Positions 15,752 to 40,257 of a stretch of DNA of 40,257 nt are shown piece after piece (the stretch's first letter is position 1; every line of letters begins with the position of its first letter). The notes under the pieces were generated by a model. It made no database searches. It was not told where the DNA came from and saw only the letters and a program-made list of their open reading frames with translations. The translations under genes and the position numbers were made by a program. Source of the stretch: Halopseudomonas aestusnigri (lineage in GTDB: Bacteria; Pseudomonadota; Gammaproteobacteria; Pseudomonadales; Pseudomonadaceae); NCBI RefSeq assembly GCF_002197985.1, contig NZ_NBYK01000018.1, positions 1 to 40,257 of the forward strand. The letters run 5' to 3'.

Positions 15752-15811
15752 ATAAAATACCCTCAATGATTGATGCTTCTTGGTCTTGATGATTCTAAGG
15801 GAAACAAGAAG

Positions 15812-15870
15812 TGTAAAGTTTAAGATTTGACCTGAATCCCCGCTTTGCTTATTCTAGAAATGTAAAGTTT
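15812..15870. repeat. Paired TGTAAAGTTT direct repeats at the island left end
   Basis: Identical 10-base copies lie at 15812-15821 and 15861-15870, 49 bases apart. They bracket the predicted ginA promoter. They could be operator sites, recombinase-binding sites near the attachment end, or both. Confidence 0.55.
15827..15855 (+). promoter_or_regulatory. Predicted sigma-70 promoter of the gin operon
   Basis: TTGACC (15827-15832), a 17-base spacer and TATTCT (15850-15855) give a -35/-10 pair with 5/6 and 4/6 consensus matches. Transcription would start near 15862, about 20 bases before the ginA ATG. Confidence 0.55.
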
Positions 15871-15882
15871 GGGGATAAGATA

Positions 15883-17148
15883 ATGTCATATCAAGTCGTG
15901 GAAATTCGGCTCAATGGTGGTCGAGAAAAGGTTTTGGTGCAAGACCGGGTGCCGCTTTACTACCCCAATCTGCTAGTGACACATAAGTTTCGGAATCGGT
16001 CGCCCAACACACAAGATAAGCTTCTAAGACACATCGCACTGTTCCACGAGTTTCTTGACAGCTTGTCCATTGATCTAATTTCACGACTCGAACAGCGCCC
16101 AAAATCTGCCTACCTAACAGATAGTGAAATCAGCCGATTCATGGTTGATGCGCACCTCTCAAAGATCACGTTAGACAAAAAGCATGCCGGTGTGAGCTTG
16201 CTCGAAAAAGCCTACGAATTCGTCGGCAGTGCTCACGCCGAGCAGCGCTGCGAGACTGTTCGAGATTACCTTGATTTCTTGTACGAAAGGCTAGGCGATG
16301 AAGTTACGCGAGAGGATGCTGCCAGAGATCTTAAAAAGCGGTTTAATCGTAAGATCAAGTCTGCTAGACCCGCCTGGAAAAGAACTCGGAATGACGAGAT
16401 AAAAGGACTGACTAAAGAGCAACGGGAATCTTTGCTTGAGGTTGCTCACCCTGAGAGCAATGCCAACCCGTTTACCACTGGAGCTCACAAGTACCGCAAC
16501 TACATCATAGTGCTACTTGGGTTGGAGCTCGGGTTACGTCGATCTGAGATGCTCCTTATTAAACTCAGCGACATCATGTGGCACATCAATCAGATTGCTA
16601 TCGTGGGTCTGGAGGATGAATCGATTGATCCTCGTAAGACTGGACCGCGCCCCAAAACGAATGAACGCATGCTGCCGATACCCGACGAGCTTGCACGGGC
16701 TATTCAAAAGTACGTCGATACTTACCGGCGTACCGAGGCCAGCGCTTCTGATGCGAACAACCATCCTTTTCTTCTTGTGGCTCATCATCGCAATGAGGGT
16801 CAGCCCATGTCTATTAAAGCCGTCGATGGTTTGTTCAATCGGTTGGGTGAAACAGTGCCGAAGCTGGCAGGGATTCACTCCCACAGGTTGCGCCATGATG
16901 CGGTATTCACACTGCTTCGCAGCATGAAAGAGGATCTTGGCGCACTTACTCCCGAAGATCGCACAACGCAAACACAGAAGGTGCTGACCTATGCATTCGG
17001 GTGGAGGTCAAACTCCGAGATGCCGGGGCTTTACGGCGCAAAATACTGGAAAGAAGAGGCCGATAAAGCCGTGAAAAAGCGTTCAGAGAATTTCCAGCGG
17101 ATTCGCGAGGAAGTGGAAGACGTTTTCAATAAGCGAGATAAGCAATGA
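15883..17148 (+). CDS. ginA: Tyrosine recombinase, first of trio (GinA-like)
   Basis: A 421-residue phage-integrase-family recombinase predicted to cut and join the island ends through a 3'-phosphotyrosine. Catalytic residues are visible: R219 in LGLRRSEML, H334-R335-L336-R337-H338 giving the HxxR pair, W373 in FGWRSNSEM, and nucleophile Y384 in GLYGAKYW, ten residues after W373. The N-terminal 200 residues form a SAM-like core-binding region (FRNRSPNTQDKLLRHIALFHEFLDSL). Its stop overlaps the next recombinase as ATGA. A plausible promoter lies just upstream. The symbol follows the GInt nomenclature by architecture and is not proven by alignment. Confidence 0.85.
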   Translation: MSYQVVEIRLNGGREKVLVQDRVPLYYPNLLVTHKFRNRSPNTQDKLLRHIALFHEFLDSLSIDLISRLEQRPKSAYLTDSEISRFMVDAHLSKITLDKKHAGVSLLEKAYEFVGSAHAEQRCETVRDYLDFLYERLGDEVTREDAARDLKKRFNRKIKSARPAWKRTRNDEIKGLTKEQRESLLEVAHPESNANPFTTGAHKYRNYIIVLLGLELGLRRSEMLLIKLSDIMWHINQIAIVGLEDESIDPRKTGPRPKTNERMLPIPDELARAIQKYVDTYRRTEASASDANNHPFLLVAHHRNEGQPMSIKAVDGLFNRLGETVPKLAGIHSHRLRHDAVFTLLRSMKEDLGALTPEDRTTQTQKVLTYAFGWRSNSEMPGLYGAKYWKEEADKAVKKRSENFQRIREEVEDVFNKRDKQ

Positions 17149-18731
17149 ACATCGCACTTACCGCATTAGAAGCACCTTCAGCCGATAAACTTGATAATTG
17201 GCTTGATCAGCCACGACTGGCAAGGTGCGGGACCCTGTTTACTCCTTCCCAGCCGATGTGGAGGCCAGATATGACCTGTGTTTCAGTCAACTGGCAAGCT
17301 GCCATAGGCTGCGTCCCTGTTGAATGGCAACGTTGGCTTCATGCCGCGTTGGCGTATCGTATGGCAGAGATAGGACAAGCAACACTGTCTAATATCGCTT
17401 CAATATTATCGCGTGCGGCTCAGGCTGAATTAAACCCCTTGAGAGAGAGTCAGATAATCGACTTGCGTGATCGCTTTTCGATTACTGAATTTTCGATATT
17501 GGTCAGCTTTGTGGTTTTCTGGCACGACTGCGAATCCCTGCAACAACGTCCGGACCAAGCACTGATCGATGCTTATGCCGCAATGCCGAGGAAAAAGCTA
17601 TCTGGTAGAGACGTGATCTTGAGTTTGGACCCCGAAGAGGGTCCGTTTACACTCCAAGAACAAAATGCACTGCACCAGTGGTCGCACGAGGCATTTTGTC
17701 ATGACGTTCTGGATCCCGAACGTTACCTTTATTTACAACTGCTGATGGTGTACGGGCAACGTGGAATTCAGCTACGCAAGTGCGTCTTTGATGATTTTAT
17801 TAGGACTGAGCGGGGATATAAGATCCGCCTTTTTTGGGCTAAGCAGCGATATGATGACGGAGGCTTCCGTAAAAAATACGAGACCTTCAACCTTGATGCA
17901 GATCTGTATGCCACTGTGCAGGCTTATCAGTCGCTCGTGCTGGCCCGTCTTAAATTAGAGTTTCCTGGTCGAGCTGATTGGGATCGAGCAATAAAGCACG
18001 TCCCGCTCTTTCGGCGTAAATTAGCTACTGGTACCAGTTACGTCAGCCCTCTTCCGGTCATTACCGACAATATTGACCTTAATTCACTCGAACACGGCCC
18101 CAACCCGGATTTTCATGTCACCCAGGCCATCACATTGAACTGGTTGAAGCAGATTGAAAAGATGGACAGTTTTCCGATATCGACTCGGACCCATAAACCT
18201 TTGAGGATCACCCGTGGTCATCGTTTCCGGCACACCCTGGGTACCGATCTCTCAAATGCTGGCTTGGACGAGTGGTCGATTGCCCATGCGTTGATGCACA
18301 GGAAAACCACTACGGTTCGCAAGTACCGACAGGTCTCCGCAGAGCTGATGAAGCTGATCGACGCAAAGATGTCCGGTCATCTTGCATTGGTGGTAAATGC
18401 TTTCTCAGGAACAATAGTTACGGATCGTGAGTCGGCTAAGAATGGTTTCAGGGCAGATCGTCAAATTCAGGATCTGGCTGTCTGTGGCTCTGATGCGGCC
18501 TGCCATTTAGACACTCCTCTCTCGTGTTATGGGTGCAGGAAATTCCAACCACTCTTGCATGCCGATCACGCAGCTTCACTGGAGCGCATGGAGCGCTACC
18601 GGGCGCAGTCAATCGATAATGACAAAGTCACTGGCGCGATCTGGGATCGTGCCATCCTCGCCTGTCGTAGGGTCATACTGGACTGTAGGTCGCTCATCTC
18701 CAAACGCGAGATCTCTAGAGGCGATGTATGA
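17145..18731 (+). CDS. ginB: Tyrosine recombinase, second of trio (GinB-like)
   Basis: A 528-residue recombinase that overlaps both neighbours by four bases. The catalytic set is R206 (YGQRGIQLRK), H359-x-x-R362 (GHRFRHTLG), H385 (LMHRKTTT) and Y394 (RKYRQVS), with the canonical nine-residue H-to-Y distance. After the catalytic domain comes a cysteine cluster, C447, C453, C461 and C464 (CxxxxxC...CYGC), likely a zinc-binding module. The N-terminal about 190 residues are not recognisable but should bind the arm or core DNA. Overlapping starts suggest fixed stoichiometry with GinA and GinC. Confidence 0.85.
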   Translation: MNIALTALEAPSADKLDNWLDQPRLARCGTLFTPSQPMWRPDMTCVSVNWQAAIGCVPVEWQRWLHAALAYRMAEIGQATLSNIASILSRAAQAELNPLRESQIIDLRDRFSITEFSILVSFVVFWHDCESLQQRPDQALIDAYAAMPRKKLSGRDVILSLDPEEGPFTLQEQNALHQWSHEAFCHDVLDPERYLYLQLLMVYGQRGIQLRKCVFDDFIRTERGYKIRLFWAKQRYDDGGFRKKYETFNLDADLYATVQAYQSLVLARLKLEFPGRADWDRAIKHVPLFRRKLATGTSYVSPLPVITDNIDLNSLEHGPNPDFHVTQAITLNWLKQIEKMDSFPISTRTHKPLRITRGHRFRHTLGTDLSNAGLDEWSIAHALMHRKTTTVRKYRQVSAELMKLIDAKMSGHLALVVNAFSGTIVTDRESAKNGFRADRQIQDLAVCGSDAACHLDTPLSCYGCRKFQPLLHADHAASLERMERYRAQSIDNDKVTGAIWDRAILACRRVILDCRSLISKREISRGDV

Positions 18732-20938
18732 CAAATATCGAGCCGTTCACGCCAAAAAAAAACCTCAAAGCCGCAGAGCAGGTGGATGCCTTTATTGGAT
18801 GGGCAAAAACCACTCTTCCCAAAGGTGTCCCGCAAAAAGTACATGCGGGTGTGCGGTGGGAGGCATTCTCTTGGCACGGATGGGGTATTCGAAGTTGCAC
18901 GTTCTACGTACTGGGCAATAACAGATTCGCGAAGGCTGTTGATAAAATACCAATGCAACAACCCTTTATCGATTTTGCTAAAGCTACGATCGTACACTAC
19001 CGGATTCTAAATAATAAGAAGAATGTTACTGGCTGGCTTATGGCACTTAAAGCTATGGAGGTAGCGCTGGTCGAGATGACCGGTCGAGGTGATGTGACCC
19101 AGCTCAACGGAGCCGTTTGCTACAAGGCTTGTGAGTACATCCAGGCCAATCTGAACAGTAGTCAAACTTGCTATCGAATCAGCAAGTTTCTGGAAAACAT
19201 CGTTGATTTGATTAAGGAAAAAAAGCTACTAACGACGCCTTTTCACTGGTCTTCGCCGCTATTCCATATATCAAAGGGTACCCTGAAGCAGCAGAGGGGT
19301 GACCGTCAGAAGAAACTCCCTAGCCAAGAGTCGATTAAGGCCTTGGGCGAGATCTTCCATAACGACCTGAACAGCTCGCTAGACGTTATCATAACCTCTG
19401 CCTGTGTGTTCCTGTTGAGCCAGCCAAGCCGTGTAGGCGAACTGGCTGATCTTCCCCGCGACTGTATCGTCTACAAGACGGGTCGGGATGGCAGTCAACG
19501 TATGTTCCTCCGCTGGTACAGTAAAAAAGGGTTTGGCGAGACGCTAAAGCCTGTGGTGACGGGTATGGAGCCTTCCGTAGAACGTGCCCTGAGCTTGCTA
19601 AGACCTCTGACTGACGATGCGCGCAAATATGCGGCTTGGCTGGAGGATCACCCCGACGAATTTCCACCGCACCCAGGGCTGCCCAAAAAGGGACCAGATG
19701 ATCCACTAAGCTATGATGAAGTCTGCGCGGCGCTTAGGCTCGCCGTCGCTAAGGGTGAGAGCGCTCGGAATAGATTTCATCAAAACTTCCTCAACAAGTT
19801 CGCAAAGCGAACCGCGCTGAGCCCTGAGGCGGAGGCTGTCTTTGACGCGATTTGCAGCGGTCTTGATACGAGCGAAGGCGAAAGGGTCTATGTGCCTGGT
19901 ACAACCCGGTACCACATGGAATACACAGATACCTGTGTGATAACGCTTCGCTCGCTGAATGTACTTATGCGGGAGAAGTACCTGCCAAAGAATTTCCCGT
20001 ACACCACTCCCTTCGAAGAGGGTAAACCGCGACTGAAGTACCGTGACGCACTTTTTACCGTGCGTACGGGGAGTTTGTTCAATAACTCACAAGTTCCTGT
20101 TGCGATTGCCCACCCGTTTGGCGTGGAGCTGGGAGCTAATAGTGCTCGCCTTGCTGTACAGCTCAAGGGGGCGAGTAAACGGCGTAGCATTTTTCAGCGG
20201 CACGGATATCCTAATGTTAGCGTAAACACTCATGCTTTTCGACACGAGTTGAATACCGAGATGCACCGGGCCGGTCTTTCGCAGCTGTTGATAGACGCGT
20301 TTTCGGGGCGCACCTCAATGGGGTGCGTATATAACCATGAAACAATTGAAGAGCGCACTCAGGCGCTCATTACGGTGCACCCTTCAACGAAGCAAAGCAA
20401 TAATGGCCAGCGCCTTGAGATGCTTAAAACCAACGCACCACTCAGTCTGAGCGATGTGACTGAATTGGACGAAAACGCCCAAGATCGGATCATCCACAAA
20501 ACGCATCTAGGAATCTGCGTGCATGATTTTAGCTACACCCCCTGCCCAAAGATGGGGGCCTGTTTAACCTGCGGCATGCTGGGGTGCGTGAAGGGCGACG
20601 ATGTGAAGCTAGCGAACATCAAGCAGGAGCGGAACGCTCTCAAAATGAACTATGAAAAGTCTGTTGATGCTGAAGCACGTGGACTTTTCGGCGCGTCTGA
20701 GTGGCGCAAGAAAGCGGCGTTGGATCTATTCAAATGCAACGCCTTGATCGAGACGCTGGAGAACCCTGAAAGGGAAAATGGAGACATCGTGTGGAACAGT
20801 GATAACGGGTGGAATTTGACGAATAACGCGGCTGCAATGGCGGGTCTCATTGATCCCCAGACTATCGAGGCTAAGGCCGAAGAAGCTATGCCCTCCCTAA
20901 CGGACTTAGAGGCACTTATGGAAAAGCTAGAGGGCTAA
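18728..20938 (+). CDS. ginC: Large tyrosine recombinase, third of trio (GinC-like)
   Basis: A 736-residue protein, the largest of the three. The recombinase core has R235 (QPSRVGELADLPRD), H502-A-F-R505-H506, and Y535 (GCVYNHE). The segment between the second Arg and Tyr is atypical: an Arg (R528) stands seven residues before Y535 where a His/Trp would usually be nine or ten before. A cysteine cluster, C597, C606, C612, C615 and C620 (TPCPKMGACLTCGMLGC), follows, comparable to that of GinB. The C terminus is charged and helical (MPSLTDLEALMEKLEG). The start overlaps ginB by ATGA; the stop lies three bases before ginD. Confidence 0.83.
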   Translation: MTNIEPFTPKKNLKAAEQVDAFIGWAKTTLPKGVPQKVHAGVRWEAFSWHGWGIRSCTFYVLGNNRFAKAVDKIPMQQPFIDFAKATIVHYRILNNKKNVTGWLMALKAMEVALVEMTGRGDVTQLNGAVCYKACEYIQANLNSSQTCYRISKFLENIVDLIKEKKLLTTPFHWSSPLFHISKGTLKQQRGDRQKKLPSQESIKALGEIFHNDLNSSLDVIITSACVFLLSQPSRVGELADLPRDCIVYKTGRDGSQRMFLRWYSKKGFGETLKPVVTGMEPSVERALSLLRPLTDDARKYAAWLEDHPDEFPPHPGLPKKGPDDPLSYDEVCAALRLAVAKGESARNRFHQNFLNKFAKRTALSPEAEAVFDAICSGLDTSEGERVYVPGTTRYHMEYTDTCVITLRSLNVLMREKYLPKNFPYTTPFEEGKPRLKYRDALFTVRTGSLFNNSQVPVAIAHPFGVELGANSARLAVQLKGASKRRSIFQRHGYPNVSVNTHAFRHELNTEMHRAGLSQLLIDAFSGRTSMGCVYNHETIEERTQALITVHPSTKQSNNGQRLEMLKTNAPLSLSDVTELDENAQDRIIHKTHLGICVHDFSYTPCPKMGACLTCGMLGCVKGDDVKLANIKQERNALKMNYEKSVDAEARGLFGASEWRKKAALDLFKCNALIETLENPERENGDIVWNSDNGWNLTNNAAAMAGLIDPQTIEAKAEEAMPSLTDLEALMEKLEG

Positions 20939-20941
20939 AGA

Positions 20942-21334
20942 ATGGCGCGTCTTTCGGAAAAGGATGAGCAGAACATACTCGCGCTCATTACGCAGTGGAC
21001 GAACCCTAAGCTTGGATGGGTCGAGCTGGTTGAGGCGTGCAAAGCTGAATTAGGTATCAGCGTCACGCGCCAAGCTCTCAGTACGCGGCAGGATTTCAAG
21101 ATGGCGATCAAGGATCGCAAAAAAGCATTGAAAGCACCGTCTCAAGCTCCGGGGTACGTGAAAGATTTAAAGGATGCTAATGAGCGCATCGCCAAGCTTG
21201 AGGCTGAGAATCAGTTGCTCAGAAAGGTAAATAATCAGCTGCTAGTGCGATTTAAGCGATGGCAAGCCAACGCAGATATGCACGGCTTGACGGAGTCGAT
21301 GCTTGATCAGCCGTTGTTTAAAGCGAGGAGGTAG
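20942..21334 (+). CDS. ginD: Small helical/coiled-coil protein of the recombinase operon (GinD-like)
   Basis: A 130-residue protein. Residues about 1-50 look like a helix-turn-helix (LGWVELVEACKAELGISVTRQALSTRQDFKMAI). Residues about 75-110 form a coiled coil (VKDLKDANERIAKLEAENQLLRKVNNQLLVRF). GAGGG at the end of ginC is its ribosome site, and only three bases separate the genes. In GInts the fourth gin gene encodes a small helix-loop-helix protein required with the three recombinases; Tn554 TnpC is an analogous small partner. A DNA-bending or directionality role is inferred. Confidence 0.75.
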   Translation: MARLSEKDEQNILALITQWTNPKLGWVELVEACKAELGISVTRQALSTRQDFKMAIKDRKKALKAPSQAPGYVKDLKDANERIAKLEAENQLLRKVNNQLLVRFKRWQANADMHGLTESMLDQPLFKARR

Positions 21335-21423
21335 TTTGAGAGCGCTGGTAGGCCGCTAGTGGCGATTCATAGAATGCCGTCAAACAGTTATCGCCGGATC
21401 ATTGCATTCTAAGGTTGAACAAT

Positions 21424-21822
21424 ATGGGGGTTCTCGAAAAAACAATTTTGGGAGGTAATCAGCGAGAAATTCTCTGCCTTGCATTGGCTACATTGAAAAG
21501 CTGGAGCCTGGGCGCTGCAAGCATCTGCCGAGTTTTACGACTGACCACAAGCGAGCTCGAAGATGTAATGCACCCGTCCTCTGATATTGACGGTTTATAT
21601 CGGGTGACGATGAAGCAGGTGGAACGCTCAAAGCTAGTGTTGGAGCTATGCATTGTCATCAACGCCACATTCGAAAACCCTTCTAATCGGAACAAGTTTA
21701 TTCACTGGCTTAACCCCACTTTTGGTGGCCGGACTCCGTTAGATATATTGGAAAATGATGATCCCGGGGCGCTGCGACGGGCGGTTTACCAGCTTGGATC
21801 TCAATCCCGTTGGCCTTGGTAA
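21424..21822 (+). CDS. Orphan Xre/MbcA/ParS-family antitoxin-like protein
   Basis: A 132-residue protein whose C-terminal part, NPTFGGRTPLDILENDDPGALRRAVYQL, is the toxin-binding MbcA/ParS/Xre (DUF2384) domain. The N-terminal half has an HTH-like stretch (LGAASICRVLRLTTSELEDVM). ATG 21424 is preceded by AAGG with good spacing; a TTG at 21415 is the alternative. In typical modules a RES-domain toxin follows immediately, but here the next gene is on the other strand and is not a RES protein. It is the first cargo gene after the gin operon. It might be a solitary regulator, an anti-addiction antitoxin, or a module that lost its toxin. Confidence 0.68.
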   Translation: MGVLEKTILGGNQREILCLALATLKSWSLGAASICRVLRLTTSELEDVMHPSSDIDGLYRVTMKQVERSKLVLELCIVINATFENPSNRNKFIHWLNPTFGGRTPLDILENDDPGALRRAVYQLGSQSRWPW

Positions 21823-21882
21823 TGGGTGTTCGAACCTAGGCTAAGTTCCGACCGAATTTGCCTGCCGGTTGAGACCGAAAAC

Positions 21883-22104
21883 CTACCACTTCGACTGGAG
21901 AATGGTCTGACACACTGCCTGGTAAGCCTCATCTGACATGAAGGTGACCTTGTCCGTGAGAATGGTCTTCACGGCCTTATCGAATGCAGCGTCAACGATA
22001 AAATCTGCAGCTGACCGATCGCAAATGCGGGCCGCCATATTGATGAGTTCGAGCTGGTCGGACTGAAAATCGGCTTCAATTTCGCAATGCTCGTCGTTTG
22101 TCAT
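21883..22104 (-). CDS. DUF1778/TacA-type antitoxin-like protein, no toxin
   Basis: A 73-residue protein. The QLELINMAARICDRSAADFIVDAAFDKAVKTILT stretch resembles the RHH plus helix arrangement of DUF1778 antitoxins, and the tail TFMSDEAYQAVCQTI resembles their toxin-neutralising segment. Such antitoxins normally precede a GNAT acetyltransferase toxin on the same strand. Here the downstream 60 bases run into the end of the convergent antitoxin-like gene, so no toxin is present. Confidence 0.6.
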   Translation of the reverse strand: MTNDEHCEIEADFQSDQLELINMAARICDRSAADFIVDAAFDKAVKTILTDKVTFMSDEAYQAVCQTILQSKW

Positions 22105-22309
22105 TTGAGCGACCGTGCCGTTGGCGGTGGATACAAAATAACGCGGCGTCCTAGTGAAATGTAGCAGGGCATAATATTCCTGATAGCCGGAGGTTTTGTC
22201 ATAGATGTTTCCATGATGCTAAATCCGGAGGCAGTTTTGATACGAGCCTTCCTACGCAGTTAATCTGATGACGATCGATTGGAAGGTAGGAACCATTGGA
22301 GCATCTGAA

Positions 22310-22715
22310 ATGAAAATGCAAAGGCCCACTACCAAGCCGTCAAACGGTTTTCTGGCCGGCATCGGTCTACCTCCGAGAGGGCAGCCACTGATTAACGCAG
22401 TTAAGACCGGCCCGTCCAGCACCCATTTCAAGCGTATCGCTGTTCTTATGGGATGTGTCCCCGTTAAGGCTTGGTCAGTGTCTGGGCATATCGAACTCAA
22501 CCTTTTATCGCCGACTTAAGCGCGGGCGATTCAGCTTTGAAGAACACGATAGGGTCATGAGGGCGGCCATTGTGTTCGAAAAGGTCGTCGAGTTGTTTGA
22601 ACATGATCAGAGCCAAGCGCGTTGCTGGATTCAGCTCCCGCAAAAAGGGCTGAATGGCAAGGCTCCGGCCCAATACCTTCGGACAGATGTTGAATGCCAA
22701 ACAGTCTTAGATTAG
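22310..22715 (+). pseudogene. Frameshifted Xre/MbcA/ParS antitoxin remnant
   Basis: An ATG at 22310 with GGAG eight bases upstream opens a frame reading NAVKTGPSSTHFKRIAVLMG, which matches the N-terminal part of the family. Around 22455-22475 the similarity jumps to another frame (offset +1): LGQCLGISNSTFYRRLKRGR, then SFEEHDRVMRAAIVFEKVVE. The toxin-binding domain then follows (CWIQLPQKGLNGKAPAQYL) but stops early at 22713-22715, before the usual LLGRIEHG end. One frameshift and a truncated C terminus make it non-functional as read. No RES toxin follows. Confidence 0.65.
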
Positions 22716-22798
22716 AGATGAGGTCTTCAGCTAATTGCGCTCAGATAAGCATTTTTGGGGTTCGGCTTGAGTTCAGCTATGCGGTTCCGAATCGGATA

Positions 22799-23053
22799 TC
22801 AAATAGATCGTTCTCGAATATTTACAGGTACGCACGCAACCACCTTCATCTTTGTCGAAACTCCAAGGATTCTTTCCGACCCATCGGGACGCTCTTCAAC
22901 GATGTAACCTCCCTTGGAGACCACGACTGCACAGGATAATTTTTTGGCCCTCATATAGGCCATGTTCGTTGCCATGGAGGCTCGCTCAGCTAGCCACTCA
23001 TGGGCCTCTAAGTCGACTTTCTCAGTTCTAGATTTCTGACGATCGGAAACCAT
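22799..23053 (-). CDS. Small hypothetical protein
   Basis: An 84-residue soluble protein from ATG 23053, which has AAGGA ten bases upstream. The N-terminal half is charged and helical (DRQKSRTEKVDLEAHEWLAERASMATNMAYMRAKKL). The C-terminal half looks like a short beta hairpin with VVVSKGGYIVEERPDGSERIL, a pattern found in many uncharacterised proteobacterial ORFs of this size. I recognise no function. It lies alone between the antitoxin remnant and the restriction operon. Confidence 0.5.
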   Translation of the reverse strand: MVSDRQKSRTEKVDLEAHEWLAERASMATNMAYMRAKKLSCAVVVSKGGYIVEERPDGSERILGVSTKMKVVACVPVNIRERSI

Positions 23054-23180
23054 ATCTTCGTCTTTCCTTGATTGGGTACCCAAGTATTAACTACACAATA
23101 GCCGAATAACCGGCATACCAAGGCGCAAGAATCGTAAGTACGACCGCTTAAATTACACGTCTGCCCAATGTCGCCAGTTC

Positions 23181-23933
23181 TCATCTGGGCAGGATGCTGG
23201 AAGCCATTCCGTCTAACCGCTCCTTGGTCTTCTCCCAACCCGGCATCACCTGGTTCATCAGCCGATAGAACCGCTCACCATGGTTGTGCTCAGCGATGTG
23301 GCAAAGCTCGTGCAGGATCACGTAGTCAATACAGTCGCGGGGAGCTTTGATTAGATGCGGATTCAAAGTGATGCAGCCATTGGGCGAGCAACTGCCCCAT
23401 TGCGTCTTCATGCTCAGAATCCTTAACGGCGGCTTTTCTGTGACCCACAACGCCTGTTCCAGAACGGCGTCTAACCGCCTAGCAAAGTTTTCCTTCGCAC
23501 GTGCTTTGTACCAGCTCGTCAGAAGGTCGCGTACGCTGTCTGCGTCTCTGGTACGTACACTGACTTCCAGCTTGCCACGCAACAGCTTCACGCCTTGGAC
23601 CTGTTTAGGAGCCTCTATGACCTTTAGCAGGTACTGTTTACCCAGGTAGTAATGGGTTTCGCCACTGACGAAGCGGCGAGGGGTTATATGCTCAAGCTGT
23701 TGACGGAACTCTCGCAGTTGCTGGTAGATCCAGCGGCCACGTTTTTTTACCGCGCACAGCACGGCCTCATTACTGGCATCCTCCGGGGCGGACACCACAA
23801 TCCGACAATCTGGGTGAACCTTGATCAATACTCTGTCGGTTGCCTGTGGGCGCTTGATGCGCTCCAAGACAAGCTGTTCGTCACCGTAGCGAAAGTTGAT
23901 GGACTGGTTTTGGGGTTTGATCGGGACGTTCAT
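23181..23933 (-). CDS. YgjP/DUF45-type M48-like metallopeptidase at the end of the restriction operon
   Basis: A 250-residue predicted zinc metallopeptidase. The zinc site HELCH (H208, E209, H212) followed by EHNHG (H218) is the YgjP/WSS1-like gluzincin pattern. Upstream MKTQWGSCSPNGCITLNP is the conserved substrate-cleft block, and the N-terminal beta region (VLIKVHPDCRIVVSAPE) also matches. ATG 23933 lies two bases after the hsdR stop, so it is the last gene of that operon. Genes of this family are frequently found next to type I hsdR; a role in processing or turnover of restriction subunits is inference. Confidence 0.85.
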   Translation of the reverse strand: MNVPIKPQNQSINFRYGDEQLVLERIKRPQATDRVLIKVHPDCRIVVSAPEDASNEAVLCAVKKRGRWIYQQLREFRQQLEHITPRRFVSGETHYYLGKQYLLKVIEAPKQVQGVKLLRGKLEVSVRTRDADSVRDLLTSWYKARAKENFARRLDAVLEQALWVTEKPPLRILSMKTQWGSCSPNGCITLNPHLIKAPRDCIDYVILHELCHIAEHNHGERFYRLMNQVMPGWEKTKERLDGMASSILPR

Positions 23934-23935
23934 AC

Positions 23936-27223: not shown

Positions 27224-27247
27224 ATTAAATCCCTTTTGTTAGCGAGC

Positions 27248-29089: not shown

Positions 29090-29113
29090 GCAAACCTCCT
29101 TGTTTAATTCAAT

Positions 29114-32425: not shown

Positions 32426-32825
32426 GGGATGCCTCCTTGAAGTTTGTGGCTCTAAGCCTGCACCCAGCAATTCGTCCGGTCTGCAGGTTTTCCAGAAACT
32501 CGACTTCGTTCCACCCGACCTTCAGGGCATTCTCCTTGAACCAGTCCTTTACCGTGCAGGTCAATTTTTGCTGATTCTTGGACTCCTGCTTGTTGTATAG
32601 AGCCAGGATGCGTTCAGCCGTGCACAGGAAAGCTGTAGCCTCAGTTTTATGCTCAGTAGGCTCTGGAAAAGCAAGCTGCTCTTTCTTTGCGCGCAACGGC
32701 GATCGGGGTTCAGGGTCTTTGCTTTGTGCTCTAATCTCAATCAGTCGCGTGGCTTGGATTAAGATAACCCCGTTGATGTTTTTGCTGGCTTGTGGTGCTT
32801 CATTTGTTTGGTATGCTTGAATCAT
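32409..32825 (-). CDS. Leader ORF of the restriction operon, unknown function
   Basis: A 138-residue soluble protein that I do not recognise. It begins MIQAYQTNEAPQASKNINGVILIQATRLIEI and has a basic, proline-rich middle. It ends with a compact stretch, TVKDWFKENALKVGWNEVEFLENLQTGRIAGCRLRA, which looks like a small helical domain followed by a strand. GGAGG six bases before the ATG makes it a well-translated first gene. Its 3' end overlaps the single-TRD gene by 17 bases, so the two are coupled and may act together, for example as a DNA-binding partner of the half specificity subunit (inference). Confidence 0.7.
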   Translation of the reverse strand: MIQAYQTNEAPQASKNINGVILIQATRLIEIRAQSKDPEPRSPLRAKKEQLAFPEPTEHKTEATAFLCTAERILALYNKQESKNQQKLTCTVKDWFKENALKVGWNEVEFLENLQTGRIAGCRLRATNFKEASRAQSQ

Positions 32826-33356: not shown

Positions 33357-33381
33357 AGCTGCCTCAATGTGACTTGAGGGA

Positions 33382-33427
33382 GGACTATCCGGTGTTTGCG
33401 GACTAGGAGGCCACGGACTATAATCCG
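33382..33427. promoter_or_regulatory. Divergent promoter with GGACTA operator-like boxes
   Basis: TTGCGG (33396-33401), a 17-base spacer and a perfect TATAAT (33419-33424) form a plus-strand promoter for the winged-helix/helicase pair. GGACTA occurs three times, at 33382, 33400 and 33415. The first is in a palindrome, GGACTATCC, and the third is in the near palindrome CGGACTATAATCCG (33414-33427), which covers the -10 box. This is how a small Xre protein would repress the promoter. Confidence 0.55.
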
Positions 33428-33455
33428 CATCCCTTTTTTGCCGTTGGTTGCCCGC

Positions 33456-34049
33456 ATGAAACCTGCCTCGTTCATCCTCGACAGACGGCTTTACGAGCTA
33501 CTCCAACAAAGCGGGTACACGCAATTCACCACTCGTGATTTGAGAGACGCTTATGCCGAGCGACTGGAAGAGGGGACCTACAAGCTCGGCGATGTGCGCC
33601 TATTTGTGTATGAGCAGATCAGGCGGATGATTCGCGTCGGTTGGCTCGTGCCCGACGAGCAGCAGCGAAAGAGGGGCCAGATCTATCATCTGCAACCATT
33701 TCCGAAGCGTTTAAAGCTTGAGTTAGTCGATCGCGCCTTTGAGCGAAGCGGGAGAGACTCAACCAAGACTGAACAGGTCCCATTGAAGAGCGAAGCCGCA
33801 ACCGCGTCCACGTCCACGTCATTGCAGGGTACCGAGCAGCATGTCAGGACCTTGCTAAAGGAAGTGCGGCTGGACTTTCTCGCGGCGATGGGGGAAGCGG
33901 AGCGTTATAAGCAACTGCTGGATGAGATGCCTCAATTGAGGGGCAGCGTTGAAGAGGACTATCTTGAGGCGCGTGACCGTGGCTCAAGGCTCTTAGGTCA
34001 TCTCCGTGCTGTGGAGAAGACACTCAAAGCGCTCGAAGCCTCACAATGA
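33456..34049 (+). CDS. Winged-helix-like protein coupled to an SF2 helicase
   Basis: A 197-residue protein of unknown function. Residues about 10-80 (LYELLQQSGYTQFTTRDLRDAYAERLEEGTYKLGDVRLFVYEQIRRMIRVGWLVPDEQQRKRGQIYHL) look like a winged helix. A low-complexity Ser/Thr linker follows, and the C-terminal half is helical and charged (VRTLLKEVRLDFLAAMGEAERYKQLLDEMPQL). ATG 33456 is used; it lacks a clear Shine-Dalgarno sequence and sits about 25 bases from the predicted transcription start. Its stop overlaps the helicase ATG (ATGA), so the two are translated together. It may recognise DNA and recruit the helicase (inference). Confidence 0.72.
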   Translation: MKPASFILDRRLYELLQQSGYTQFTTRDLRDAYAERLEEGTYKLGDVRLFVYEQIRRMIRVGWLVPDEQQRKRGQIYHLQPFPKRLKLELVDRAFERSGRDSTKTEQVPLKSEAATASTSTSLQGTEQHVRTLLKEVRLDFLAAMGEAERYKQLLDEMPQLRGSVEEDYLEARDRGSRLLGHLRAVEKTLKALEASQ

Positions 34050-35431
34050 CGTCTTCATTACGCACATGGCAAACCCGCTGCATTGAAAAAGCACTAAGAC
34101 AATTCACTTCTTCTCGGCATTTTTTCTGCCAAGCCACGCCCGGCGCAGGTAAGACTCGAATGGCGGCAGAACTAGCCCGCTGCCTGTTGGAGCAAAACAA
34201 AATTGATCTGGTGCTCTGCTTTGCGCCATCGTGCCAAGTTGTTGAGGGTTTTCGCTCGACCTTTGCCCAGGTATTAGCCAAGCGGCTGGATGGCCACCTC
34301 GGCGCGGTGGGTGCTGCGCATACCTACCAAGCCATGGACTACCGGGGCGAGGCGTTTTGGCAGCTCCTGGACGATTACCGAGTATTCACAGTATTCGATG
34401 AGATTCACCACTGTGCCGGCCATGACCCTCTGCTCAGCAATGCTTGGGGACAGAAAATTCTGCAGCGGGTTCAGGATCGAGCCGCTTTCACTCTAGCGCT
34501 ATCAGGTACGCCATGGCGCTCTGATGATCGCGCAATAGCTCTGGCCCGTTATTCCTCACCAGAAGGTAAGCTGATTTGCGACTATCGCTATGGATTAAGT
34601 GAAGCAATAGCTGAGGGCGTATGCCGATCGCCTCGTATTATTCTCCTTGATAACCAAAAGGTCACACTTATTGAGGAACCAGCCGCCGAGCCGGCGGTCA
34701 GGCTGTTTCCTAGTATCGCCAAGCTGCTTACGGAGTCCCCAGTTACTTACGAGAGCCTTCTGCGCCATGATGAGGTAGTCGATCAGCTACTCAGGCTGGG
34801 GTGTGCAAAGCTGAACGAGGTTCGCCTAAGTAAGCCAGATGCTGCGGGGCTGGTGGTTTGTACAGATATAGAACACGCTCACCAATTAGCAAATGCTTTG
34901 AAAGCACTGGGTGAAAGCTATTTGGTCGTTACCAATCAAACACCGGACGCCCAGCAGGTGATCAGCTCTTTCAGGCATGGCGATTGTCGCTGGATCATAG
35001 CGGTGGGAATGATTAGCGAGGGAACAGACATCCCTCGTCTGCAGGTGTGTTGCTATTTGAGCCGAATCCGCACAGAGCTTTATTTTCGTCAGGTGTTGGG
35101 AAGGGTGCTGCGTAGAACGTCGGACACTGATGAGCAAGCTTGGCTGTTCATGCTGGCGGAGCCGACTTTGAAGGGCTTTGCCGAGCGAATTGCTGAGGAT
35201 CTGCCGGAGGACCTAGCGGTTCTGAGCCAGTTTGATTTAACAGCTGTTTCTTCCGGGTCCTACCTGTCAGAGACCGATGCCGGCGGTCTTGCAATGATCG
35301 ATCTTGGCGGCCAGGAACTTGGCTCCTCGAGGGACGGACCTGATGGTGAAATGACTCCGGCTTTGGACAGCCCAAGCTACCAAATCAGTTTTTCACCGCA
35401 CTATCGAGAGCTGTTGCTGGCGTGCTTCTGA
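34046..35431 (+). CDS. SF2 DEAD/DEAH-type helicase, putative defence ATPase
   Basis: A 461-residue superfamily 2 helicase with a two-RecA core and little else: Q-like RTWQTRCIEKAL, Walker A ATPGAGKT (30-37), DEIH (118-121), SGTP (153-156), GMISEGTDIPRLQ as motif V and QVLGRVLRR (349-357) as motif VI. Motif spacing is like that of the UvrB/XPB/type III Res group. No nuclease domain is visible. The last 70 residues are acidic and serine-rich. It is coupled to the winged-helix gene and lies in a defence-rich island, so an anti-phage or plasmid-silencing role is plausible. I cannot assign it to a named system such as Hachiman or Zorya. Confidence 0.8.
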   Translation: MTSSLRTWQTRCIEKALRQFTSSRHFFCQATPGAGKTRMAAELARCLLEQNKIDLVLCFAPSCQVVEGFRSTFAQVLAKRLDGHLGAVGAAHTYQAMDYRGEAFWQLLDDYRVFTVFDEIHHCAGHDPLLSNAWGQKILQRVQDRAAFTLALSGTPWRSDDRAIALARYSSPEGKLICDYRYGLSEAIAEGVCRSPRIILLDNQKVTLIEEPAAEPAVRLFPSIAKLLTESPVTYESLLRHDEVVDQLLRLGCAKLNEVRLSKPDAAGLVVCTDIEHAHQLANALKALGESYLVVTNQTPDAQQVISSFRHGDCRWIIAVGMISEGTDIPRLQVCCYLSRIRTELYFRQVLGRVLRRTSDTDEQAWLFMLAEPTLKGFAERIAEDLPEDLAVLSQFDLTAVSSGSYLSETDAGGLAMIDLGGQELGSSRDGPDGEMTPALDSPSYQISFSPHYRELLLACF

Positions 35432-35530
35432 TACCTATAAATCACCGCCATGGCGTTTACAAAGCGGGACGCTCTTTGCCCTTTCCCTACACTTGTATTG
35501 ACGCTATGAGGTTCTTCTCACGAGACCGCG

Positions 35531-35998
35531 TCAGACGGGGCCACCCCACTCGATGGCACGGAGCACCCTATAAGCCTGGCGACCTCCAAGCTCGGTTCTA
35601 CAGAGAAAAAAAGGCGCTTCACCCCCTAAGCTATCATTGGGGGTAACCATCCAGTCTTCAGTCGCTCTCCGAGCCTCAAAAACAGTTTCTGAGAGCAGAG
35701 CCAACTGGGCCAGTCGGTCAAGTCGCTCAGAGGCTGGCGAGCCGAGCGGTGTGGCTTTTTTCAATCGCTGCCGAAGTGTTTTAACAGAGATGTCTGCAAA
35801 GCTGGCAATCGCTGACTCATCGAGATCGAAAGCCTTTTTGGCAGCTAACAGCCAGGTAACCGCAAATCCCGATCGTATGCTGCTAATTCGCTCACGCTCG
35901 GTCATCAGAGAGAGCTTTTTTGCAATAATCCAAAAGCTTAGGGCGTCCGCCCCCGGGCTTTTAAGATGGTCATCCAGATGATGTTTTAAGGTCGGCAT
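35531..35998 (-). CDS. Xre/MbcA/ParS-family antitoxin without a RES toxin
   Basis: A 155-residue protein with the full antitoxin layout. The HTH region is around residues 40-80 (FDLDESAIASFADISVKTLRQRLKKATPLGSPASERL). The toxin-binding domain reads EDWMVTPNDSLGGEAPFFLCRTELGGRQAYRVLRAIEWG near the C terminus. ATG 35998 has GAGG eight bases upstream. In complete modules a RES-domain NAD+-degrading toxin starts at or over the antitoxin stop. Here the next 99 bases contain no such frame and then meet the convergent helicase gene. A palindrome upstream (36031-36048) suits autoregulation. Confidence 0.78.
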   Translation of the reverse strand: MPTLKHHLDDHLKSPGADALSFWIIAKKLSLMTERERISSIRSGFAVTWLLAAKKAFDLDESAIASFADISVKTLRQRLKKATPLGSPASERLDRLAQLALLSETVFEARRATEDWMVTPNDSLGGEAPFFLCRTELGGRQAYRVLRAIEWGGPV

Positions 35999-36355: not shown

Positions 36356-37612
36356 ATGGAAACGTTCCACAATCCAGACAGGTTCATGTCTGATCTGCGG
36401 CAAGTGCTATCGCAGGGAAGAAAGCGTATTGGGATTCTTGTCGGTGCAGGTGCCCCCCTCGCGATACGCGTTAATGAAAAAAATGAGATGGATCCTAACG
36501 GGGGGTCGTTAATCCCTGGTGTCGAGACGCTAACAGTACAGGCAACCGCTGGGTTGTCAGAAATTCAGAAGGCGGCAGTCGACGCTATAAAAGAAAGCCT
36601 GGATAACAGCGCAAATATTGAGTCCATTCTTTCTCGTATACGTTTATTAGAACAGGCGCTGGGGAAAACCGTGGTCCAAGGGCTCGATTCTGACGGTTAT
36701 AGAACTCTCGGCAAGGATATTTGCAAAAATATTGCCAAGATTGTTGGCGTGTATTTACCCAAAGATCGTAACGCCTATTCTGACTTGATAGCCTGGATTA
36801 CAGGAACGGTTCGGTCCAATTCAGTCGAAATATTTACTACAAACTATGATCTCTTATTTGAAGAAGCATTTGAAAGAGTTAGAAGCCCCTACTTTGATGG
36901 GTTTTCAGGGGGCAGTAAGCCGTTCTTTGATCCGGTCTCGGTCGCGGGTGATGATTTGCCCGCTCGCTGGGCAAAACTGTGGAAGATGCACGGTTCCCTC
37001 GGCTGGGCATTGGAGGATGGAACGGTTGTCCGGGGACATGGGCGTGAAGCAGCCGAGTTAGTTTATCCAGATCATTTAAAATATGATTTAACGCAAAAAC
37101 AACCGTACTCAGCGCTCTTCGAAAGGCTAAAGAGATTCATACTCACGCCTGACTCCTTATTGCTGGCAATTGGATTTTCTTTTAGAGATGCGCATATATG
37201 TGCGGTTCTTGATGAGAGCTTGGCAATGAATGCCAACTCTGCTGTCTTGGCATTTCAATATCAAGAGCTGGCAAAAGAAGAGCCCGCTGTCAAGTTGGCG
37301 AGTGACCGACCCAACCTTAGTGTCTATGCTGCTGATGGTGCTGTGATAGGAGGAGTTCCGGGTAAATGGAGGCCAGGCGAGCTTCCCAAGAACTGGGGAA
37401 GTATCCGTGAAAGCTTCTGGGCTCCACGATGGCCGAACGAGCCAGACTTGTTTTTATTGGGGGACTTTGCGGCGTTTGCACGCTTCTGCGCTTTGGCCCA
37501 AGCCAACGATCTGATAACGCAATCCCTGAAAAGAGACGAGCCAGAAAAATTGGAAACTGAGGATGGTAGCTACGACGATAATACCGTTGCGCATGGGGAT
37601 GATGATAGATGA
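36356..37612 (+). CDS. SIR2-domain defence NADase (SIR2-HerA system)
   Basis: A 418-residue protein with a SIR2-like NAD+-binding fold. Visible are GILVGAGAP (26-34), the NAD-contacting TTNYD (161-165) and catalytic-type histidine H212 in KMHGS, then LLAIGFSFRD. SIR2 proteins paired with HerA deplete NAD+ on phage infection and abort it. The residues needed for hydrolysis (N163, D165, H212) look intact. AGGGAGAG precedes the ATG, a strong ribosome site. The stop overlaps the HerA gene by ATGA. The last 40 residues are acidic and probably disordered. Confidence 0.9.
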   Translation: METFHNPDRFMSDLRQVLSQGRKRIGILVGAGAPLAIRVNEKNEMDPNGGSLIPGVETLTVQATAGLSEIQKAAVDAIKESLDNSANIESILSRIRLLEQALGKTVVQGLDSDGYRTLGKDICKNIAKIVGVYLPKDRNAYSDLIAWITGTVRSNSVEIFTTNYDLLFEEAFERVRSPYFDGFSGGSKPFFDPVSVAGDDLPARWAKLWKMHGSLGWALEDGTVVRGHGREAAELVYPDHLKYDLTQKQPYSALFERLKRFILTPDSLLLAIGFSFRDAHICAVLDESLAMNANSAVLAFQYQELAKEEPAVKLASDRPNLSVYAADGAVIGGVPGKWRPGELPKNWGSIRESFWAPRWPNEPDLFLLGDFAAFARFCALAQANDLITQSLKRDEPEKLETEDGSYDDNTVAHGDDDR

Positions 37613-39441
37613 GTGGCAATGATCCTACCTACTTAGGAGTCGTCAGTGCCGTGTCCGGCGCAACTCTGACGGTCAAACTTGCAGAGTCTCTGGATTCAGG
37701 GTTTGCCGTCATCAGAGGCCATACATATCGGGTTGGTCAAGTCGGAAGTTTCGTTAGAATTCCTCAGGGCTACCAAGACTTATTTGGCATTGTTTCTGAG
37801 GTGGGAGCAACTGCGGCTCCCGCACAGGCTGTTACATCAGCCATTGACTCAGGAAGATGGATGACGGTCCAGCTTGCCGGCGAAACAGTCGGCGGGCAAT
37901 TCGAAAGAGGCTTGAGCCAGCACCCTAATATAAATGACTCAGTGCATTTAGTAACCGAAGCAGATTTAAGGAGAATATACGGATCAGTTGGCGATGACCA
38001 GGTTGTTATAGGACACCTAGCTAGCGCCGAAAATATTGAGGTGCGGTTATCTTTGGATGCGCTCGTAACTCGTCACTCCGCGATACTTGGTTCAACAGGG
38101 GCAGGAAAGTCCACAACAGTTGCGAGTCTCTTGCGTTCAATTATTCGGAAAGATGAGCAGCCTGGTTCGCCAGGTGCACGAATCCTAATGCTAGACATTC
38201 ATGGCGAATACACCAAAGCGCTTGAAGATGTCGCGACGGTTTTTAGTGCCACTCCTAGCCAAGGCCAAGAGTATTTGTTCGTCCCCTACTGGGCTTTGGA
38301 GGCTGGCGAACTTCTGGATTTTGTTACGGGCGGACTGTCGGATGCTCATGAAATTGCCTTCACTGATAAAATCGCGGAGTTAAAGGAAAAGGGAATAAAG
38401 GCGTGTCCCAAAGCGGGAATTGACTTAAGAACGCTTACCGTGGATAGCCCTGTTCCGTTTAGCTTAAAGCAACTTTGGTATGAGCTGGTCGATTTTGAGA
38501 CGACGACTTATGTCGGTGCTAATCGTGATGAACCTGCGCTGGATGAGGCTGGTGACGCAGATACACTGGTAGCGCCAAAATACCGACCTCATGCGATGGG
38601 GACCAGGGGCCCCTTCACTAACACAGCGGCAAAAGGAATCCGCAGACCATTGAATTTGCTTCGATCCCGCTTACTGGATCGGCGTTATGACTTCCTACTT
38701 CATCCCGGAGATTGGGAGCCAGACCTGACAGGAGCGGTAAAAAGCGACCTCGACAAGCTATTAGAGGGCTGGCTTGGGCACGATAAACAAATCACGATAT
38801 TGGACTTATCCGGTGTTCCGAGCACAGTTCTCACACGCCTCATCGGTTCTATTCTTCGCATTGTTTATGAGGCGCTTTTTTGGAGCCGGGAGAAGTCAGA
38901 AGGTGGCGTAGAGCGCCCTCTTTTAGTCGTGATGGAGGAAGCTCATCGCTACCTAGGGCCTGATGCCGGAACGGTTGCTTCAGAAGTAGTAAAGCGTATC
39001 GCGAAGGAAGGACGGAAGTATGGTGTTGGCGCGATGGTAGTTTCTCAGCGGCCCGCAGAAGTCGATGAGACAGTTCTATCCCAATGCGGCACAATTATCG
39101 CGCTTCGGCTATCAAATCCTGTAGATCGCGCACGTGTGAAGGGGACCTTACCAGATAATTTAGCAGGCCTTATGGACTTACTACCGGTCCTTAGGACCGG
39201 GGAGGCTATAATCACAGGAGAGGCGGCTCGCCTTCCTGTGCGCTGTCGTATTGCTTTACCTCGCAAAGAGCATTTACCTAGGAGTAGCGATCCCAAGGTA
39301 ACTCAAGCTTGGGCCAAGCGGCGCTCGGCAGAGGGGTACGACCGCGTGGTTGCCTCTTGGCGTAGTCAGCAGACCACAGCGGTAGTCCAAGAGCTTGATA
39401 TAACTCGTTTACCAATTGAAGACGATCCTGAGGAAAGCTGA
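37609..39441 (+). CDS. HerA-like DNA translocase ATPase (SIR2-HerA system)
   Basis: A 610-residue FtsK/HerA-clade ATPase. The N-terminal HAS-barrel (about 1-150, VVSAVSGATLTVKL... RVGQVGSFVRIPQG) leads into Walker A GSTGAGKST (161-169), DIHGEY, Walker B VVMEEAH (440-446) and the arginine-finger region SQRPAEVDETVLSQCGTIIALRL. HerA forms hexamers; with SIR2 partners these assemble into a large complex that senses infection and controls NADase activity. The start overlaps sir2 by four bases and the stop lies two bases before the KTSC gene, so all three form one operon. Confidence 0.92.
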   Translation: MSGNDPTYLGVVSAVSGATLTVKLAESLDSGFAVIRGHTYRVGQVGSFVRIPQGYQDLFGIVSEVGATAAPAQAVTSAIDSGRWMTVQLAGETVGGQFERGLSQHPNINDSVHLVTEADLRRIYGSVGDDQVVIGHLASAENIEVRLSLDALVTRHSAILGSTGAGKSTTVASLLRSIIRKDEQPGSPGARILMLDIHGEYTKALEDVATVFSATPSQGQEYLFVPYWALEAGELLDFVTGGLSDAHEIAFTDKIAELKEKGIKACPKAGIDLRTLTVDSPVPFSLKQLWYELVDFETTTYVGANRDEPALDEAGDADTLVAPKYRPHAMGTRGPFTNTAAKGIRRPLNLLRSRLLDRRYDFLLHPGDWEPDLTGAVKSDLDKLLEGWLGHDKQITILDLSGVPSTVLTRLIGSILRIVYEALFWSREKSEGGVERPLLVVMEEAHRYLGPDAGTVASEVVKRIAKEGRKYGVGAMVVSQRPAEVDETVLSQCGTIIALRLSNPVDRARVKGTLPDNLAGLMDLLPVLRTGEAIITGEAARLPVRCRIALPRKEHLPRSSDPKVTQAWAKRRSAEGYDRVVASWRSQQTTAVVQELDITRLPIEDDPEES

Positions 39442-39443
39442 GC

Positions 39444-39653
39444 ATGAACCGTGAAGCGATATCTTCGTCAAATATAATGTCTGCTGGTTACGACTCCGGG
39501 AGTGAAACTTTGGAGATCGAATTCAAGAGCGGAGCTGTTTACCAGTATTATAATGTGAGCGAACATCTTTATGAACAATTCAAAGCTGCCCCCTCTAAAG
39601 GACAGTTTTTTCATATATATATAAAGGATGCGGTTCCATTTTCAAGAGTTTGA
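39444..39653 (+). CDS. KTSC-domain protein, third gene of the SIR2-HerA operon
   Basis: A 69-residue protein consisting of one KTSC domain: SSSNIMSAGYDSGSETLEIEFKSGAVYQYYNVSEHLYEQFKAAPSKGQFFHIYIKD. It keeps the family pattern of SSxIxxxGYD, IEFxxGxxYxYxxV and SxGxFFxxxI. KTSC domains occur alone or at the C terminus of some lysyl-tRNA synthetases; their function is not established. It is two bases after herA, so co-expression is near certain. It could be a regulator or sensor of the NADase complex, but that is inference. Confidence 0.83.
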   Translation: MNREAISSSNIMSAGYDSGSETLEIEFKSGAVYQYYNVSEHLYEQFKAAPSKGQFFHIYIKDAVPFSRV

Positions 39654-39745
39654 TGGATATAGTCGAGCCATATAAACTGCTACCCTATCGATTAGCTGCG
39701 ACAAAGAATAGTTCTTATGTATTAGAGCTTGAAACAGACGTCTGA
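39653..39745 (+). CDS. Possible 30-residue ORF, perhaps a gene fragment
   Basis: An ATG overlaps the KTSC stop as TGATG and opens MDIVEPYKLLPYRLAATKNSSYVLELETDV, then stops. The sequence looks like the start of a longer protein cut short. It may be the broken 5' end of the next frame (39729-40061). The case rests only on the coupled start. Confidence 0.3.
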   Translation: MDIVEPYKLLPYRLAATKNSSYVLELETDV

Positions 39746-40061
39746 AGAGAGCTGGGGTCAGGTGCACATTTTTTGTAGCCTCCCCAGCGGTGAGTCTTTG
39801 CACTATGTGTATTGTCCCCTTGCAGAACTCAAAGCGCATGCCGCTCAGCGGCTTCAGACTCCCCAGCTCCAGTACCCTGAACGAGCTGCCTGGCGATCCA
39901 TAATTGAGGGCAAAAGTCCTTATGGTGTCGATGACACTAAAGCAGAACGAAAAGACAATGGGTGGAACTGTGGCGTCGCAATAATCGGTGCAGACTACGC
40001 GACGTCGGATTTTCTGAACGCCCGCTCTTGGCCGATGGCTGCCGTTTGCCAATGGCCGTAA
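39729..40061 (+). CDS. Hypothetical protein, uncertain
   Basis: An open frame of 110 residues with only a TTG start, or internal GTGs. It reads SLPSGESLHYVYCPLAELKAHAAQRLQ and later DNGWNCGVAIIGADYATSDFLNARSW, which looks protein-like but matches nothing I know. A frame of 136 residues on the opposite strand (39642-40052) overlaps it and looks less natural. Together with the preceding 30-residue ORF it may be one gene broken by a frameshift. Confidence 0.35.
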   Translation: MKQTSEESWGQVHIFCSLPSGESLHYVYCPLAELKAHAAQRLQTPQLQYPERAAWRSIIEGKSPYGVDDTKAERKDNGWNCGVAIIGADYATSDFLNARSWPMAAVCQWP

Positions 40062-40257
40062 CCGGTTAGAAACGGATATCGAGCTTTTATACTATTATCG
40101 GGATAATTAGGCAGAAGGGAGCCGGTGAATTCGCCCCAAACCTGGTAGCCCCCATAAGGGCTTGAGATTGGATATGAGCCCGCAATTCGGCGCGTGAAAG
40201 TGCGGCTACTCTGGCTTAGTGATTTTCGGTTGCCGGATGGGGTGTGGCAGATAGGCT
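40062..40257. other. Window end: non-coding stretch and possible start of another gene
   Basis: An AT-rich piece with the dyad ATTATC-GG-GATAAT (40094-40107) is followed by GC-richer DNA. From about 40158 a plus-strand frame is open to the window edge; from GTG 40194 it reads VKVRLLWLSDFRLPDGVWQI. This may be the beginning of a further cargo gene; nothing can be said about function. Confidence 0.25.

Follow-up and report, generated by a model that had tools for sequence, protein, structure and literature searches.

The window analyzed here, the whole of contig C18 (NZ_NBYK01000018.1, 40257 bp) from the 3.83-Mb genome of Halopseudomonas aestusnigri, very probably contains a GInt that integrated within the first codons of ettA, severed this gene from its native start, supplied a new start codon and leader in its place and carries exchangeable defence modules. 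EttA is a ribosome-binding ABC-F protein that regulates translation. This reading would tie a known mobile-island family to the control of a host translation factor.

The GC content of the window drops from approximately 0.62 to 0.50 at 15.8-16 kb, and four open reading frames of 421, 528, 736 and 130 aa lie in a row divergent from ettA (Table 1). The ginA/ginB and ginB/ginC junctions are ATGA overlaps (at 17145 and 18728, respectively), while ginC and ginD are separated by a gap of 3 bases. The ORFs, overlaps and order were all recovered as a preliminary description of this DNA had claimed for a row of recombinases and a small gene. The ginABCD genes span 15883-21334, adjoining ettA, with the cargo downstream. 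The left boundary had been set at 15770; because the element also encodes the first 12 codons of ettA, it actually lies at approximately 15716.

Table 1. Features of the window (contig C18) of H. aestusnigri; G, C and L numbers denote genomes, contigs and loci used in the comparisons.
Feature	Position (bp)	Strand	Basis
Host part of ettA (target gene), from the Tyr codon of the conserved YVYSM onward	14060..15715	-	NCBIfam EttA 1007 bits; native congener start MAQ[YF]VYSM
Element-encoded start codon and 12-residue leader MAKGDKTGQTGS, in frame with ettA; island left end / attL	15716..15751	-	congener comparison; leader DNA also in L038 and L047
Sub-terminal repeat copy 1, TGTAAAGTTT	15812..15821	+	10-mer present just twice in the window
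Sub-terminal repeat copy 2 (49 bp from copy 1)	15861..15870	+	same-orientation copy at the right end, G000:C5
ginA, tyrosine recombinase	15883..17148	+	PF00589 E-value 2.4e-13; 24-row alignment
ginB, tyrosine recombinase	17145..18731	+	PF00589 29.1 bits (cut-off 27.1); NF041502 222 bits, under the cut-off of 350
ginC, large third recombinase-like protein	18728..20938	+	R235, H502, R505 and Y535 invariant in 25 rows; no Pfam match
ginD, small charged protein	20942..21334	+	synteny; 48-56% identity to 13 related loci aligned (24 available)
Conserved GInt backbone after ginD, without a recognised gene	21335..22990	.	85% DNA identity to L034, to approximately 22990
YgjP-like metallopeptidase; end of the block common with G018	23181..24029	-	PF01863; G018 DNA homology starts at 23202
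HsdR, type I restriction subunit	23936..27223	-	Pfam, NCBIfam, PADLOC
GmrSD/DUF262 protein within the type I operon	27248..29089	-	PF03235 and PF07510
HsdS specificity subunit	29114..30295	-	Pfam, PADLOC
HsdM methyltransferase	30270..31793	-	Pfam, NCBIfam, PADLOC
Short HsdS-like protein, single Methylase_S match	31790..32470	-	PF01420 29.6 bits
217-aa protein without a family match, helicase partner	33396..34049	+	pair also in G018 at 61% and 70% identity
Superfamily 2 helicase	34046..35431	+	PF04851, PF00271
Xre/MbcA-type antitoxin-like protein	35531..35998	-	PF20432, PF09722; NF049845 74 bits, under the cut-off of 90
SIR2 defence protein	36356..37612	+	PADLOC SIR2 528 bits
HerA partner of SIR2	37609..39441	+	PADLOC HerA 543 bits

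The GInt family was described from Pht-PAI and Pseudomonas stutzeri DSM 4166 in the accessible text of Bardaji et al. 2017 (PMC5385486), and in known GInts all four gin genes are essential and a circular intermediate is formed. The island in the window has the four-gene ginABCD arrangement (two recombinases matched by PF00589, a large third protein and a small fourth), cargo following ginD from approximately 23.2 kb with an AT-rich 3' end attributed to a second contig (C5), and a position at the 5' end of an ABC-transporter gene, ettA, for which congeners retain empty sites. Relatives of GinC from the same hosts, rather than the published reference GinA-D, served for comparison, and those in named genomes occupy 24 loci. 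All four gin genes are matched in order at 23 of these, and the remaining locus (L034) starts inside ginA and holds the rest; damage is seen at L055, where ginB matches in two pieces, and at L057, where ginA is short, with a reading that stops early. Of the 23 loci open to judgement, 21 have ettA next to ginA (matching in two pieces at L043), and L038 and L047 are related GInts sited outside ettA. The hosts of these relatives include Pseudomonas, Stutzerimonas, Marinobacter, Halomonas, Hahella and an Oleiphilaceae MAG. Because the Pseudomonas loci have the same layout, we infer that the published GInt target PSPPH_4293 is ettA. In a sample of the family, 18 of 398 genomes gave a strong GinC match (E-value < 1e-200) and another 18 gave weaker matches only (to 1e-20); among 390 genomes sampled from the order, 9 had a match at 1e-20. 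Four-gene synteny, adjacency to ettA, the empty congener sites and the attR on C5 together support the assignment of the island to an ettA-targeting family of GInts.

GinA and GinB both match PF00589 (Phage_integrase), and GinA residues R219/R220, H334-x-x-R337 and Y384 are conserved in the 24-row alignment (with L057 outside its coverage). Neither GinC nor GinD has a match in Pfam or NCBIfam. In GinC, the residues listed in Table 1 form an invariant R, HxxR and Y pattern that resembles the recombinase catalytic motif. As a GinC profile matched nothing among solved structures at an E-value of 10 and did not match GinA in a profile comparison, the catalytic reading is drawn from these motif-like residues, which are a candidate active site. 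The present GinC carries an Arg at a first-Arg-like motif, whereas the first Arg is reported as missing from GinC in the accessible text of Bardaji et al. 2017 (PMC5385486); the protein is termed non-catalytic in the accessible part of PMC10214605.

The island ends were placed by comparison with GInt-free congeners, as the preliminary description had suggested could be done with empty sites. In these congeners ettA starts with an intact MAQ[YF]VYSM, and in the window the EttA N-terminus reads MAKGDKTGQTGS-YVYSM. Contig C5, from the same genome, has the severed native start, ATG GCT CAA, at its end. The DNA upstream of this start matches the ettA-upstream DNA of congeners at approximately 68-70%, and the start is followed by 183 bp (67% A+T) up to the contig end. 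Judged from this arrangement, the end of C5 is attR, the right end of the island beyond the window. At this right end, the native start runs into an in-frame stop within at most 10 codons. A search for small contigs joining C18 to C5 covered 13 contigs, five of them by their first 20 kb only and one of them reading as N, but few of the larger contigs; no end words were shared. The ettA-start pattern was also run on 23 genomes; among the matches listed, candidates were fetched in six and held in five (G233, G416, G420, G423 and G429), in each of which both ends were found, with a severed native start and an in-frame stop within ten codons. The sixth candidate, from G419, was a false match, and no attR was found within the 40 kb fetched for G518 and G527. 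As candidate short imperfect direct repeats, attL GGATCATATGTTTA and attR GGCTCAATTCGGTTA can be aligned by eye with one gap so that 10 of 14 positions agree. Scanning the left end for sigma-70 sites yielded a weak signal (3 sites against 0.7 expected, one of them towards ettA); transcription from a GInt towards its ABC-transporter target gene has been reported.

Near the left end, TGTAAAGTTT occurs in two copies 49 bp apart, and the right end on C5 has one further copy, oriented alike. A repeat of this type is present at both ends of the G233 element (one left copy with one mismatch), and the G416, G420, G423 and G429 elements carry a AAACNTAACNTTTT-type repeat at both ends, with two left copies 48 bp apart and one right copy, all in a single orientation; G423 has one extra weak match that overlaps the right copy. 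The repeat variant matches between the two ends within each of the six elements, and the motifs are rare in the cargo (0 to 0.11 per kb). These repeats are likely binding sites for a Gin protein. For the GInts of Bardaji et al. 2017, the accessible text (PMC5385486) describes conserved AT-rich 3' stretches and no common self-recognition feature, in contrast to the repeat common to both ends here. A variant-matched end repeat was not found in the literature searched.

Comparison with another species of the genus (G583) revealed a step in DNA identity at attL: the ettA core is 82.9% identical, but the 167-bp left end is 97.6% identical and the first 564 bp of ginA are 98.8% identical. This step supports transfer between the two species. 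Despite its near-identical left end, the G583 element is disrupted in ginA, and the G583 assembly (92% complete) gave no match to the HsdR or HerA of the window at the thresholds used. HerA of the window kind was found in only 1 of 37 genomes of the genus (that of the window itself), and HsdR in 2 of 37.

Two alternatives to a GInt of this kind bear on the identity and state of the island. The recombinases could belong to another multi-recombinase family, since SEs (strand-biased circularizing elements), RITs, Tn554 and gamma-mobile trios all use several recombinases and GinA weakly matches the trio protein GmtY (39 bits, cut-off 340). We consider this highly improbable. The gene order (two Pfam-detectable recombinases, a large undetectable one and a small protein) and the target site fit a GInt. 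SEs are given in the accessible text of PMC10214605 as having the order IntA-Tfp-IntB-Srap, while PF00589 is matched here by genes 1 and 2 and not by gene 3; RITs, which have 34-bp terminal inverted repeats, carry three recombinases that, as far as the accessible descriptions go, measure 315-410 aa, against 421, 528 and 736 aa here. A gamma-mobile trio has GmtY and GmtZ above the NCBIfam cut-off, whereas the GinA score falls far under it and GinB and GinC have no GmtY or GmtZ match in NCBIfam. The comparison with these families covered gene order, protein sizes, family-model scores and the target site. It could also be argued that the locus is a defence island fixed in the chromosome, in which the GInt genes are no more than relics. 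Relic relatives do exist: G583 and G752 retain the start of ginA, and G002 approximately 18 codons of it, while G448 and G498 retain the leader, and the DNA fetched from them shows no gin gene. Even among the named loci there are the two-piece matches of ettA (L043) and ginB (L055) and the shorter ginA of L057. For the window itself this is improbable, as all four gin ORFs are intact, the catalytic residues of GinA and GinB are conserved, both island ends are present and the identity step at attL points to transfer.

The new EttA N-terminus follows a pattern, M[AS]K[GSTD][DN]K[TAHS]G[QK]TGS, that is in frame in the window, in G002 and in every one of the 21 named islands linked to ettA; a similar leader in G233 has a TTG start. 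Twelve residues thus stand where the native protein has three (MAQ). The leader is carried by the element, because its DNA is also present in the two islands outside ettA (L038 and L047, the latter with a GTG start). The L047 leader appears, by eye, to be in frame with a helicase-like reading frame. In the family survey, an ettA N-terminus match was obtained in 391 of 398 genomes. Among the matches listed, 22 of the 391 align from residue 1 (E-values to 2.3e-12), and the next best (6.4e-10) aligns from residue 9. Seventeen of these 22 leader genomes have a strong GinC match, and they are all of the genomes with both a strong GinC and an ettA match. The other five (G583, G002, G752, G448 and G498) gave no GinC match in the survey cross-check, indicating that the leader can outlive the island. 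In G583 and G752 the start of ginA gives way to other DNA, and the ginA remnant of G002 is a weak match (E-value 0.31); island loss is less certain in G498, which has a 3.7-kb contig, and in G583, where the contig ends soon after. The leader would serve as a sequence mark for present and past insertions, even where the island has decayed.

Whether the leader has a role as a peptide or is a mere by-product of the recombination site is a closer question, and we judge the by-product reading to be only a little short of an even prospect. The leader DNA lies next to the crossover, and L038 retains it even though that island is not at ettA and the leader frame soon stops there. Conversely, synonymous changes are favoured in the leader frame only: among 17 distinct DNAs of 23, pN/pS is approximately 0.37 in this frame but 0.98 and 1.26 in the other two, and a value as low as 0.37 was reached in 28 of 2000 column shuffles (median 0.94). 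This codon bias is suggestive, as the 17 sequences are related and short, and the conservation could partly reflect the recombination site. The frame is preserved in each of the 23 leaders examined at ettA, however, and the leader stays with ettA in the five genomes without detectable ginC. The literature searched (supplements and closed papers being outside its scope) contained nothing joining GInts and EttA, and replacement of the ettA start and leader by a GInt left end was likewise not found there; the accessible main text of Bardaji et al. 2017 (PMC5385486) makes no mention of a replaced start codon or N-terminus. SXT at prfC and IMEVchUSA3 at dusA, as described in the accessible text of PMC8409611, are elements other than GInts; the new dusA N-terminus is of native length, with 61% identity over 35 residues, whereas at ettA 12 residues replace 3.

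The cargo list of the preliminary description was largely borne out, with R-M, GmrSD, Xre and SIR2-HerA genes recognised by Pfam, NCBIfam or PADLOC. The supposed helicase pair holds one helicase, however, and its 217-aa partner has no family match in Pfam, PADLOC or NCBIfam. Similarly, one antitoxin-like gene (35531-35998, Xre/MbcA type) was found where more than one had been listed, and no toxin partner for it was recognised among the ORFs scanned. The adjacent SIR2 and HerA genes match PADLOC defence models, with NCBIfam equivalogs under cut-off. The short HsdS-like gene adjoins hsdM and is additional to the full hsdS; a search for inverted repeats that could flip hsdS found only weak pairs.

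One congener (G018) carries the R-M block and the helicase pair in the same order, and in the same orientation relative to recombinase genes, as the window. HsdR, HsdM and GmrSD are 95-96% identical (HsdR 95%), YgjP 80% and HsdS only 36%. As the helicase pair (Table 1) is more diverged than the R-M block, a single joint transfer is not established. The G018 recombinases score above cut-off as GmtY (513 bits) and GmtZ (812 bits), lie approximately 2.3 kb from YgjP and adjoin a LysR-type gene rather than ettA; DNA homology with the window ends at the end of YgjP that faces the recombinases. The 40 kb fetched from G018 showed no gin gene, and ettA of that genome has no leader. The gamma-mobile trio resembles a GInt as a multi-recombinase island but differs in its recombinases and, here, in its LysR-type neighbour. 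In G018, genes for an adenosine deaminase, a SIR2-like protein and a DUF2971 protein lie between the R-M block and the helicase pair (L188/L189, G018:C11). The occurrence of the same cargo without these recombinases, which would have counted against a GInt as its vehicle, was therefore observed in half: the R-M block and helicase pair lie near another vehicle at another site. Gamma-mobile trios are reportedly carriers of defence genes (Mahata et al. 2024). The R-M block and more distant helicase pair near such a trio in a congener were not found in the literature searched. Within one genus, two different multi-recombinase systems have closely related defence blocks nearby, which makes a change of vehicle directly testable.

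Taken together, the following course of events is proposed. GinA and GinB, with GinC and GinD, would recombine a site on the element with an attB at approximately codons 3-6 of ettA, by analogy with published GInt experiments, and the end repeats would be bound by a Gin protein. As the sequence shows, integration parts ettA from its native start, ATG GCT CAA being left at the right end, and the left end gives ettA the new ATG and 12-residue leader read in frame with YVYSM, presumably along with a promoter and ribosome-binding site. The cargo modules, namely type I R-M together with GmrSD and YgjP, the 217-aa/helicase pair, the Xre antitoxin and SIR2-HerA, are exchangeable and probably protect the host and hence favour retention of the island. 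A wider reading is possible but doubtful: ettA-type GInts might re-tag EttA with a selected leader, seizing its start and probably its expression, so that a fossil leader outlives the island and imprecise loss of the left end is costly, while defence cassettes hop between such islands and unrelated gamma-mobile trios.

The idea of a GInt as a defence vehicle at ettA, put forward in the preliminary description, held as to the GInt identity, the ettA target and the defence cargo, but not as to dedicated transport of a whole cluster or novelty. Defence-loaded GInts are already in print: E. coli GInts carry defence systems at fixed hotspots according to the accessible text of Hochhauser et al. 2023 (PMC10121019), and R-M cargo is noted in that of the founding GInt paper (Bardaji et al. 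2017, PMC5385486). Like the islands of Hochhauser et al., the present one is a multi-integrase island with defence genes; unlike them, it lies in another host and at ettA, a site not named in the accessible text (PMC10121019). The cargo of related ettA islands is mixed: G416 has R-M, PrrC and a SAVED effector, G423 has SspC and G233 has R-M and DruE, and some cargo is metabolic, such as an acyl-CoA dehydrogenase in L052. In pooled Pfam tallies (25 commonest families per pool; 218 of the 226 ORFs with 120 aa or more, most loci contributing only approximately 10 kb after ginC and the 8 ORFs from L037 being excluded as the same island as G416), defence was one theme among several. PADLOC matched 5 of 10 hand-picked large related cargo proteins at 1e-30 and 7 of 10 hand-picked G416/G423 proteins at 1e-20. 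A related R-M block is also present in an Aeromonas caviae record (L190, NZ_AP026896.1), approximately 6 kb from three recombinase-like genes; this 4.94-Mb record is labelled as a plasmid but is chromosome-like.
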